DNA of 64,000 nt, from positions 1,906,001 to 1,970,000 of the forward strand of contig NC_011027.1 in NCBI RefSeq assembly GCF_000020505.1. The letters run 5' to 3'. The notes beneath the pieces were generated by a model. It did not search any database, was not told the origin of the DNA, and saw only the letters and a program-made list of their open reading frames with translations. Source of the DNA: Chlorobaculum parvum NCIB 8327. Its GTDB lineage: Bacteria; Bacteroidota; Chlorobiia; Chlorobiales; Chlorobiaceae. Of the stretch, positions 14,660 through 17,977 are shown piece by piece. The position numbers and the translations under genes were made by a program. Position 1 is the first letter of the stretch; each line of letters opens with the position of its first letter.

Positions 14660-15658
14660 GTGAAAATAAATCTTGACAGAACATCATCCGGCTTCTGCAT
14701 CGGCGTGCAGGGCACGATTCATGTTGCCGAAGAGAAGCTCAACCAGTCGGGCGAGCTGTACTGCCTCGGCGATGTGGTGCACAACGAGGTGGAGGTCAAG
14801 CGGCTCGAAGCGCTCGGCATGGAGACCATCGACATTCCGGCGTTTGAAGAACTGCGCGACGCCGAGGTGCTGATCCGCGCCCACGGCGAACCGCCTTCGA
14901 CCTACGAAACCGCACGCCGCAACAACCTCGCAATCACCGACACGACCTGCCCGGTGGTAGCGAAGTTGCAGAAAACCGCCAAAATGCTGCACCAGCTCGG
15001 CTATCAGGTCATCATCTACGGCAAAAAAATTCACCCGGAGGTGATCGGCATCAACGGCCAGTGCAACGACGAAGGCGTCGTCATCAAACACCCCGACCTG
15101 TCCGATGAGGCGGAAATCGCGCCGCTCGACCTGGGCCGCAAGACCGCGTTGATCTCCCAGACCACGATGGATGTACCCGGCTTTTACGAGCTGAAGAAAA
15201 ACCTCGAAAAGCTTTTCGCCGAACACGGTCACCGCAATCCTGGCACGAAGAGCGGCGAGTGGATGGCCGTGCGCGACATCGATATCACCTCCGAAAAAAC
15301 CGGCGGTCGCGCCATGCCGGAGCTTGTCTATAAGGACACCATCTGCCGGCAGGTTTCGAGCCGCAACGGTAAGCTGCGCGATTTCGCGCTCGCGAACGAC
15401 TGCATCGTCTTTGCGGCGGGTCGCAAAAGCTCGAACGGACAGGTGCTCTACTCGATCTGCAAAGACGCCAATCCGCACAGCTACTTCATCGAGGATGTCG
15501 ATGAAATCCAGCCGGAGTGGTTCGTCGGCGAAAACGGCAAGCCGGTCGAGAGCGTGGGCATCTGCGGCGCGACCTCGACCCCCATGTGGCTGCTCGAAAA
15601 GGTGGCCAACTACATCGGCAAAACCTTCGGCGATGACTCCGGCAACCCGGACGCATGA
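14660..15658 (+). CDS. ispH: 4-hydroxy-3-methylbut-2-enyl diphosphate reductase
   Basis: A 332-residue Fe-S enzyme that makes IPP and DMAPP in the last step of the methylerythritol phosphate pathway. Seen: the conserved cysteine motifs SGFCIGVQG (about residues 10-18), [10 protein letters not shown] (about 95-104) and the late [12 protein letters not shown] (about 300-311) plus HPEVIGING. The start is GTG at 14660, preceded by a GGAGAAG ribosome binding site; an ATG alternative would cut into the first Fe-S ligand region. Chlorobi rely on this pathway for chlorophyll, carotenoid and quinone side chains. Confidence 0.95.
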
Positions 15659-15683
15659 ACGCAACCATGAAATGATACCGACC

Positions 15684-17660
15684 ATGAAACCTGTCAACCT
15701 CATTATCGATGGCCGCAGCGTGCAGGCGGCTCCGGGACAGACCATCCTCGAAGCGGCTCGCGAAAACGGCATCCGCATCCCGACGCTCTGCTTCCACAAA
15801 GAGATCGAAGCGACCGGCTCGTGCTGGATCTGCATCGTGGAACTGAAAGGCAAGAACCGCTTCATCCCGTCGTGCAGCACGAAGGTAAGCGAAGGGATGG
15901 TGGTCGAAACGCGCAACGCCGAGCTTGACGCGATGCGCCGCCAGAGCCTCGAACGGCTGCTGGCCCAGCACTGCGGCGACTGTCTCGCGCCGTGCGAACT
16001 CGCCTGCCCGGCAGGTTGCGACATTCCCGGATTCGTCTCGGCCATCGCCAAAGGCAACGACCGCGAAGCGCTCGAAATCATTCGCCGCACGATCCCGCTG
16101 CCTGGCATTCTCGGGCGCGTCTGCCCCGCCCCGTGCGAAGAGGCGTGCCGCCGCCACGGCGTTGACGAGCCGGTCTCGATCTGCGCCCTCAAACGCTTCG
16201 CCGCCGACCAGGAGATGACGGAAGGCTCGGAACTGCCGGAGCGCGAACCGGCCTCCGGCAAGCGCGTGGCCATCGTCGGCGCGGGTCCAGCGGGCCTGAC
16301 CGCCGCGTGGTTCCTGCTGCTCGGCGGGCATGAGGTGACGATTTTGGATGCGAACGAAAAAGCGGGTGGCATGATGCGCTACGGCATCCCGAAATTCCGC
16401 CTGCCCGAAGCGGTGATCGACGCCGATGTCGAGCCGCTCGTGAAGATGGGAGCGACCTTCCGCTTCTCGACCATGTTCGGCAAGGACGCTGGACTGGCCG
16501 GATTGCAGAAAGAGCATGACGCCGTACTGCTCACCATCGGCGCAAGCCAGGCCTCGAAGCTCGGCATTCCGGGCGAAGAGCTTGACGGCGTGCAGAGCGG
16601 CATCGATTTCCTCGCCGACGTTGCGGACGGAACCGCCACCGCGCCCGGCAAGTCGGTGATCGTCATCGGCGGCGGCAACACGGCCATCGACGCGGCACGC
16701 ACCGCCCTGCGCCTCGGCGCGGAAGCGGTGACGATTCTCTACCGTCGCGGACGCGAGGAGATGCCCGCCAACCGTCTTGAAATCGAGGAAGCGATTGCCG
16801 AAGGAGTCGAGCTTCGCCTGCTCGCCGCGCCGGTCGCGATTGAAAAAGGAGCAGATGGACTCGTCGTCACGGCGGTCGAAATGCAACTCGGCGAGCCGGA
16901 CGCAAGTGGCCGCCGCCGTCCGGTTCCGGTCGCGGGGTCGGAGTTCACGCTCCAGGCCGACACGGTCATCTCAGCCACCGGCCAGCAGGTTGACCTTCCG
17001 ACAGAAGCCGCATCGGGCATCGGCACCGAGCGCAACGGCACGATCAAAGTCAATGGTGGATCGATGCTTACCGAAGCAGCGGGTGTCTTCGCGGCGGGCG
17101 ACTGCGTCAGCGGCCCCGATCTGGCTATCGAAGCCGTCCGGCAGGGCCGACTGGCCGCAGAGGCGATCGACCGCTTCCTGAACGGCGGCGATCCGGCAGC
17201 GACAGGAACGGCAATGTTCAACTCAACCTACGGAGCGCGAGACAAGGCCCCGCACCAGTTCTACGACCGGGCGAGACCTGCGGCGCGTATTGCCGTGCCG
17301 GAGCTGGAGGCGGAGTCGAGACGCCGGAGCTTCGAGGAGGCGGTAACAGGATACGACCCGGAACAGGCGCGAGAGGAGGCCAAACGCTGCCTGCGCTGTC
17401 GCTGTCAGGCGGTTGACGATTGCCGCCTGCGCAATCTGGCCACGGCATTCGGCGTGACCACTCCGGTAGTCGAAGAGACCCACGAGTACTTCAGCATCGA
17501 CAGGTCGGGCAACATACGGTTCGAGCGGGAAAAGTGCGTTGATTGCGGCGTCTGCATCCGCACGATGGAGTCGATTTCAGGAGACGTGGCAACCATTCAG
17601 GAAGAGCTGGTCGAGCACTGCCCGACCGGAGCCATCAGCGGGCGCGGACGCTCACGCTGA
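15684..17660 (+). CDS. GltD-like NAD(P)/FAD oxidoreductase with NuoG-type Fe-S N-terminus
   Basis: A 658-residue flavin and multi-cluster iron-sulfur protein. Domains in order: a 2Fe-2S ferredoxin-like domain with C36, C47, C50 and C64 (NuoG/hydrogenase-type spacing); a cysteine-dense stretch, H96 to C112 and C147-C155 (GRVCPAPCEEAC), like GltD; an FAD fold with GAGPAG at about 199-204; an NAD(P)-binding fold with GGGNTAIDAA near 329; and a C-terminal ferredoxin-like segment with CVDCGVC (about 618) and HCPTGAI. It is not glutamate synthase beta proper because of the extra domains. It probably shuttles electrons between NAD(P)H and ferredoxin or an unknown partner. Start at the ATG beginning MKPVNL; a second ATG 12 bases earlier is possible. 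It follows ispH by 25 bases, so it could share its transcript. Confidence 0.85.
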   Translation: MKPVNLIIDGRSVQAAPGQTILEAARENGIRIPTLCFHKEIEATGSCWICIVELKGKNRFIPSCSTKVSEGMVVETRNAELDAMRRQSLERLLAQHCGDCLAPCELACPAGCDIPGFVSAIAKGNDREALEIIRRTIPLPGILGRVCPAPCEEACRRHGVDEPVSICALKRFAADQEMTEGSELPEREPASGKRVAIVGAGPAGLTAAWFLLLGGHEVTILDANEKAGGMMRYGIPKFRLPEAVIDADVEPLVKMGATFRFSTMFGKDAGLAGLQKEHDAVLLTIGASQASKLGIPGEELDGVQSGIDFLADVADGTATAPGKSVIVIGGGNTAIDAARTALRLGAEAVTILYRRGREEMPANRLEIEEAIAEGVELRLLAAPVAIEKGADGLVVTAVEMQLGEPDASGRRRPVPVAGSEFTLQADTVISATGQQVDLPTEAASGIGTERNGTIKVNGGSMLTEAAGVFAAGDCVSGPDLAIEAVRQGRLAAEAIDRFLNGGDPAATGTAMFNSTYGARDKAPHQFYDRARPAARIAVPELEAESRRRSFEEAVTGYDPEQAREEAKRCLRCRCQAVDDCRLRNLATAFGVTTPVVEETHEYFSIDRSGNIRFEREKCVDCGVCIRTMESISGDVATIQEELVEHCPTGAISGRGRSR

Positions 17661-17683: not shown

Positions 17684-17977
17684 TCACTCGCCGTTTTGCG
17701 GGCTTTCGTCTTGCTTGAACAGCCAGTCGAAAGCCCTCATTGCGCCTCCCCTCTGGTCAACAGCTTCTTTGACCGACTCCCCTGCCCGGCGAGCTTTTTC
17801 AGCAGGATCGCCACCATTCCAGCTTACCCAGGCAACATAAAGAATGCCAAGTGCAACCAGCACAAGCAAAACGCGCAACATCCGCTTGGCAAACCACAGC
17901 ACAATCATCAGCGAAATGATTACTGCAATGCCGAGCACCACCGGATGAGCGGTCAGGTAATTGATAATGTCAATCAT
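17684..17977 (-). CDS. small membrane protein of unknown function
   Basis: A 97-residue protein with two adjacent membrane segments (about residues 10-28 and 33-53), followed by a charged soluble tail with EKARRAGESVKEAVDQRGG. I recognise no family. It lies 12 bases downstream of lpxB on the same strand and so is probably co-transcribed with it; this makes an envelope location likely, with no evidence for a specific role. Convergent with the oxidoreductase gene. Confidence 0.65.
   Translation of the reverse strand: MIDIINYLTAHPVVLGIAVIISLMIVLWFAKRMLRVLLVLVALGILYVAWVSWNGGDPAEKARRAGESVKEAVDQRGGAMRAFDWLFKQDESPQNGE

Follow-up and report, generated by a model that had tools for sequence, protein, structure and literature searches.

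An orphan StnC-type iron-sulphur flavoprotein, predicted to oxidise NADPH, is encoded directly behind ispH in most Chlorobiaceae

The closest described relatives of the protein considered here are StnC of Sporomusa ovata (8oh5) and the NADPH subunits of NfnABC transhydrogenases (9bov, 9n5u). According to the accessible text on StnABC, electrons pass from FAD through clusters C7, C6, C5, C4 and C3 to StnB, and the branch formed by C1, C2 and an inactive FdhF-like domain is a remnant, non-functional for electron transfer and needed for assembly (PMC10482914). Recombinant StnC by itself catalyses NADPH oxidation with methyl viologen at 58 U/mg, and two motifs, HxxxCxxxCxxxCP and CxxCxCxxxxC, are named for StnC and NsoC in the accessible sections of the same source (PMC7483475); the second motif is quoted in that paper's wording, the sequences analysed here having five residues before the last cysteine. 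In NfnB and DsrL-2, specificity for NADP(H) is marked by a YRR motif, as stated in the available part of PMC7596348. Our literature searches, whose coverage left out most subscription papers, returned neither a description of a StnC that lacks its complex nor any work on the present protein, and a term search of the accessible text of the Bfu paper (PMC9304861) gave no mention of Chlorobi. By these searches, a StnC that stands alone appears to be new, whereas its family, its fold and the StnC type itself were known already.

The window is the whole stretch of DNA that was analysed, 64,000 nucleotides of Chlorobaculum parvum NCIB 8327 (NC_011027.1, positions 1,906,001 to 1,970,000), taken from a genome of a single contig of 2,289,249 bases. 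Its positions 15684 to 17660 on the plus strand were confirmed as an open reading frame of 658 residues, whose start at ATG 15684 is shared by relatives, unlike a second in-frame ATG at 15672, which most close relatives lack. The frame is not a chance one, since it matches the family profile PRK12814, is present in 78 of 86 Chlorobiaceae genomes (60 of 65 among the high-quality ones) and evolves with a dN/dS of 0.10-0.26 in nine species pairs. The upstream order is glutamate racemase (murI), then ispH, the latter identified by NF002187 (370 bits, cut-off 276); lpxB lies downstream in convergent orientation. The ispH stop codon ends at 15658, leaving the gap of 25 bases given in the first-pass annotation. 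The features are as follows.

14660-15658, plus strand: ispH, first gene of the two-gene unit (NF002187 match; orthologue directly upstream in 43/43 loci)
15684-17660, plus strand: orphan StnC-type Fe-S flavoprotein, predicted to oxidise NADPH, 658 residues, NCBIfam PRK12814 (family profile, phmmer, tree, fold)
15687-15917, plus strand: NuoG-like [2Fe-2S] domain (Fer2_4), ligands C36, C47, C50 and C64, equivalent to cluster C4 of StnC (Pfam, alignment)
15963-16223, plus strand: GltD-type domain for two [4Fe-4S] clusters (Fer4_20), containing the StnC motif H96xxxC100xxxC104xxxC108P, C147, C151, C155 and K170 (Pfam, alignment)
16191-16193, plus strand: codon of Lys170, which corresponds to K170 of StnC; the NfnB-, DsrL- and GltD-type paralogues in the same genome have Glu here (alignment)
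16263-17147, plus strand: Rossmann folds for FAD and NADP(H) (Pyr_redox_2), R239 included (Pfam, alignment, fold)
16740-16748, plus strand: YRR, residues 353-355, NADP(H)-specificity motif (sequence motif)
17388-17423, plus strand: CxxCxCx5C motif, C569/C572/C574/C580, putative cluster C5 of StnC (motif, alignment)
17517-17642, plus strand: C-terminal ferredoxin-like domain with a single cluster, C618/C621/C624...C646, putative cluster C3 (alignment)

The Pfam domains (Fer2_4 at residues 2-78, Fer4_20 at 94-180, Pyr_redox_2 at 194-488) and the cysteine motifs, in which the C-terminal CxxCxxC...CP (C618, C621, C624, C646) follows CxxCxCx5C (C569-C580), agree with the earlier description of a NuoG-like 2Fe-2S domain, GltD-type Fe-S and FAD/NAD(P) folds and a ferredoxin-like C-terminus joined in one chain.

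The protein belongs to NCBIfam PRK12814 (NF009454), an equivalog that it matches with 1175.1 bits over residues 1-655 against a cut-off of 916; two other Chlorobiaceae proteins score 1109.7 and 1121.7, and five relatives outside Chlorobiaceae fall below the cut-off with 432-727 bits. The family is therefore already known, and it carries the database name "glutamate synthase small subunit". Taken at its word, this description, together with the GltD fold of the core, would make the protein the small subunit of glutamate synthase. The name does not fit, because a true GltD adjoins GltB in the same genome: this protein (L004) reaches 684 bits on TIGR01317 (cut-off 447.7) beside the glutamate synthase large subunit, against only 236.7 for the protein studied. 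The presence of gltBD in the genome already makes such a role unlikely, and we regard it as scarcely credible. A misleading name is thereby corrected for a gene that 78 of the 86 Chlorobiaceae genomes carry.

The relation to other GltD-fold and NuoG families, which had been proposed as a check, was examined with their profiles. Membership of the NfnB/GltA type was rejected (TIGR01316, 359.9 against a cut-off of 471.75), position 170 being Lys and not Glu and the neighbour being ispH and not NfnA. The DsrL subfamily PRK12771 was narrowly missed (502.3, cut-off 516), the genome's own member (L003) scoring 708.6, and the NuoG profile TIGR01973 gave 73.3 bits over residues 7-100 only (cut-off 470.05). 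Paralogues of the NfnB/SudA, GltD and DsrL kinds are each present in the genome. They share with the protein a GltD core holding two Fe-S clusters, FAD and a nicotinamide fold, but they have Glu in place of K170 and lack the N-terminal [2Fe-2S] domain; K170, H96 and this domain thus set the protein apart from the three. It sorts instead with StnC.

In phmmer searches, only StnC-type chains match it nearly end to end (9bov at 2.6e-167, 8oh5 at 1e-158), and 9n5u matches at 1.6e-148 in two stretches. The AlphaFold model (mean pLDDT 86, pTM 0.84, weakest at residues 38-45 and 595-601) aligns with 8oh5 over residues 1-651 (Z 42.0, 591 residues, 3.5 A) and with 9bov over residues 1-645 (Z 43.3), whereas NfnB, GltD of glutamate synthase and dihydropyrimidine dehydrogenase cover about residues 98-540 only. 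The similarity to StnC and the NfnABC subunits includes the N-terminal NuoG-like [2Fe-2S] domain with its four cysteines, a fold of almost the whole length, both StnC/NsoC cysteine motifs (HxxxCxxxCxxxCP and CxxCxC), K170, R239 and YRR. The differences lie at the C-terminus, where the sequence stops after one of the two ferredoxin clusters, and the FdhF-like domain and the side-branch clusters are absent; by comparison, the relative L087 has a Molybdopterin domain at residues 756-1162. A tree was built by a quick method from 75 sequences cut at 900 residues, with 18 chosen Chlorobiaceae rows and without L004. It omits 10 of the 61 loci L086-L146 that are fragments or lack a usable frame (L116, L125, L129, L132, L134, L135, L136, L139, L144 and L145); its two outgroup rows fell apart, long branches were flagged, and the placement of L123 is unsure. 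In this tree the 18 Chlorobiaceae rows form one clade and group with L086, L137 and L140 (SH-aLRT 99, the branching order not being settled). These three, of which L137 and L140 belong to Planctomycetota, likewise have short frames with no room for an FdhF-like domain, but a NuoF-type gene adjoins them, fused to NuoE in L137 and L140. Sequence, ligands, tree and predicted fold together indicate that the protein is of the StnC kind, a NADPH subunit as in Stn/NfnABC transhydrogenases that lacks one ferredoxin cluster and the FdhF-like domain. As a separate observation, the Stn complex has an unusually compact relative in L137 and L140, where a short StnC-like protein is encoded directly downstream of the fused NuoE-NuoF.

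The conservation of the ligands is consistent with this kinship. H96, K170, the [2Fe-2S] cysteines and C569/572/574/580 are identical in 38/38 aligned proteins, C104 is cysteine in 35 and R239 is arginine in 37 of the 38, and the counterpart of K170 is Glu in the three paralogues of the genome. Judged by homology and counting, the cysteines would allow one [2Fe-2S] and four [4Fe-4S] clusters, which is the StnC number minus C1 and C2 and accords with the multi-cluster flavoprotein announced in the first-pass annotation. His96 probably takes the place of a cysteine ligand, since it is invariant while Cys97 varies among Chlorobiaceae. In the C-terminal domain the first ferredoxin motif has kept its first three cysteines but not its fourth, the second motif lacks three, and the last Cys-Pro remains, which amounts to the loss of one cluster from a two-cluster ferredoxin. 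Both of the other tails inspected, those of L086 and L140, show this loss too, which agrees with the tree. Separately, Cys112 (window 16017-16019) occurs in 12/12 Chlorobiaceae rows and 0/26 others; it lies near the cysteines that belong to the FAD-proximal cluster and could alter the ligation of that cluster. The YRR motif suggests NADP(H) as the nicotinamide, and the protein can be read with good confidence as a NADPH-oxidising module.

In StnC-type systems the partner subunits are encoded nearby, whereas no gene of the StnA or StnB type exceeds the cut-off in this genome. Among 58 public loci outside Chlorobiaceae, 53 of which reach the N-terminal domain, tblastn with the L087 subunits located, within the fetched DNA, a NuoF-like gene for 50/53 and a NuoE-like gene for 45/53. 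In 48 of these 50 the NuoF-like gene was scored by rule as directly upstream; in L111 it lies 0.9 kb off, and in L114, probably mis-scored through a second match, a complete NuoF frame stands just upstream. As for the three loci without NuoF, L106 and L110 begin where their contigs end, and the 1.7 kb available upstream in L123 contains none. The 668-residue StnC-like gene of L123 (1714-3717), on a 5-kb contig, is flanked by frames that by eye resemble a sensor kinase and gpsA, and may be a second orphan. Complex1_51K (PF01512, the NuoF/StnB type) was found in 0/21 Chlorobaculum genomes including that of the window, some of them incomplete. It occurs in 11/86 Chlorobiaceae genomes, all of the other genus and each time as a 441-residue frame; the single locus checked (L047), where RnfB-like and RnfD domains were also checked, encodes RnfC by Pfam. 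PF01257 (the NuoE/StnA type) gave no match above the cut-off in 12 genomes and five weak ones below it, that of the window genome being a small 2Fe-2S ferredoxin-like protein (L157). The Chlorobiaceae gene is an orphan module, cut off from the bifurcating partner subunits. The NADPH module of a bifurcating complex thus exists apart, with the electron-transfer path of StnABC kept and its remnant branch lost. As the rest of the electron-splitting enzyme is missing, the electrons must be taken up by a different partner, perhaps IspH.

One such partner might be complex I, which in green sulphur bacteria has no NuoF; the protein would then be its missing input module and pass NADPH electrons through the NuoG-like N-terminus. 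The NuoG-like [2Fe-2S] domain with the adjoining His-ligated cluster region would suit this role, as would a genome with NuoD and without NuoF, but NuoD is kept in 8/8 genomes where the gene was not found, the other NuoG domains are missing and no nuo neighbour of the gene was seen, which leaves the proposal very improbable. We propose instead, with a probability of roughly 0.6, that the protein is a StnC-type NADPH module, freed from its complex, that serves a one-electron acceptor, most likely IspH. NADPH would give a hydride to FAD in the GltD-like core, and single electrons would travel through two [4Fe-4S] clusters, the K170-ligated one first and the His96-ligated one second, then through the CxxCxC cluster and the N-terminal [2Fe-2S] cluster, and finally through the C-terminal [4Fe-4S] cluster. 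They would exit to the acceptor on the side that StnB occupies in StnABC, and the most likely single client, IspH, could be reached directly or through a small ferredoxin. In E. coli, NADPH suffices for IspH by way of flavodoxin reductase and flavodoxin. IspH as the client remains a tentative assignment, a little short of even odds; marginally less weight still falls on the fuller version, in which a dedicated NADPH-driven IspH reductase was placed once behind ispH in the ancestor of most Chlorobiaceae, IspH adapting through an RDxDxT loop and residue 14.

The gene pair itself is well conserved. Of the 78 gene-bearing genomes, 43 loci were examined, and ispH stands directly upstream on the same strand in every one, at a gap of -4 to 63 bases (median 25) with an ATGA overlap in nine; the pairing recurs in 20/20 public Chlorobi-like loci, which partly overlap the 43, so that the absence in other Chlorobi considered by the first-pass annotation was not observed. 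Outside these 20, ispH is absent from the fetched DNA of 59 public loci, including L144, a Chlorobiaceae fragment. In a phylum sample of 148 genomes, 32 match at E 1e-100, namely 27 Chlorobiaceae and five of other families; two of the five lie in frames of more than 1250 residues and three match only from about residue 91 onward. Part of the linkage with ispH represents general synteny, because murI is also conserved upstream of ispH (40/43 loci), at gaps (-4 to 318, median 114, in 45 loci of which five lack the gene) wider than that between ispH and the gene. Five high-quality Chlorobiaceae genomes have ispH without the gene, four having been searched at E 1e-20 and G165 at 1e-100 and through its ispH locus. 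In all five, murI and ispH are still together, and lpxB comes next in four. The pair thus forms a real gene unit, although ispH can also occur by itself; IspH does not depend on the gene, other donors being at hand. G152, G199 and G200 (81-88% complete), also without the gene, were excluded from the loss count; an assembly gap is the probable cause, as ispH is missing there too. On the ispH tree, in which 16/47 inner branches are well supported, the state of the gene changes once, consistent with either a single insertion or a single early loss. A substitution of the gene by Rnf was considered: the RnfC-type Complex1_51K gene is found in 4/5 high-quality gene-less genomes against 6/60 gene-bearing ones (Fisher p 0.0014, confounded by kinship). 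This association was set aside, because the single state change leaves one independent pair on the tree, and it is ascribed to common descent until shown otherwise.

IspH itself differs with the presence of the gene. Relative to the aligned sequences, which we take to be those of Aquifex and E. coli IspH, the Chlorobaculum enzyme is longer by an extra stretch that lies between residues 177 and 221 and precedes DTIC, which presumably holds the third cluster cysteine. Within it, an RDxDxT loop occupies residues 205-210, with R205, D206, D208 and T210 identical in 43/43 gene-bearing species. The loop is present in 20/20 public loci, 0/5 gene-less genomes and 0/6 genomes from other families of the order; the gene-less five have gaps or mostly other letters at these positions and never the whole motif, and most of the extra stretch is missing in the six. 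Residue 14, next to Cys13, is Ile in the 43 gene-bearing and 20 public loci and Phe in the five gene-less and six other-family genomes. Columns tracking the gene, defined as those where 95% or more of the gene-bearing sequences share one residue that no sequence without the gene has, number 4/168 in ispH, 0/62 in murI (C-terminal part) and 0/140 in lpxB (4/168 against 0/202, Fisher p 0.04, the columns not being independent). The loop was noticed after the fact, among five gene-less genomes and one tree split, and because of this single split it is only suggestive. Together with Ile14, it makes IspH likelier as the partner. The gene had the higher dN in 8/9 close pairs, which was counted against the main proposal. 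The coupling to ispH first guessed from the spacing is thus strengthened by the conserved tight pair and the loop that tracks the gene, and weakened by the persistence of IspH without the gene; it is an inferred coupling.

The protein might alternatively act as a second ferredoxin/NADP(H) oxidoreductase, keeping NADPH and a ferredoxin in balance, in reverse or for the general pool, with ispH a mere neighbour. The photosystem of green sulphur bacteria reduces ferredoxin, a cytoplasmic ferredoxin:NAD+ oxidoreductase outside the rnf operon is reported in two species in the accessible part of a review (PMC11269200), and one ancestral insertion could explain the ispH neighbourhood as an inherited one. 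Against this, the genome already has a ferredoxin-NADP reductase (L006, a fragment of which matches 3ab1 at 1.3e-109) and an NfnB-like gene next to an NfnA-like (PRK06222) one (L002, G000:C1:496865-501115), a pair that likely encodes an NfnAB transhydrogenase. The spacing to ispH stays within -4 to 63 bases in 43/43 loci, yet lpxB was not found downstream in 11 of the 43, four with short DNA and seven with a full 1.5 kb flank; in L019 (longer DNA L073) an lpxB-sized frame is displaced further on, past an 884-residue frame. The tracking of the gene by the IspH loop also speaks against a pool function, which we consider unlikely, but the most serious competitor of the IspH client.

The first-pass annotation had also offered ferredoxin-dependent steps of the reverse TCA cycle as a destination. 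NADPH alone cannot push low-potential ferredoxin far enough, as judged from the potentials. Such a supply is unlikely, because the bifurcating subunits of the StnABC type are absent and the potential of NADPH is too high; the NADP(H)-type YRR motif and the presence of NfnAB-like and ferredoxin-NADP reductase genes point the same way. Should IspH prove to be the client, the source of its electrons in green sulphur bacteria would become directly testable, with a named loop, and isoprenoid synthesis could run on NADPH, for instance in the dark, when the photosystem does not reduce ferredoxin. Between the gene and lpxB, the minus strand of the window (17684-17977) carries a 97-residue frame without an NCBIfam match, membrane-like by eye, which has 29-71% identity in relatives.
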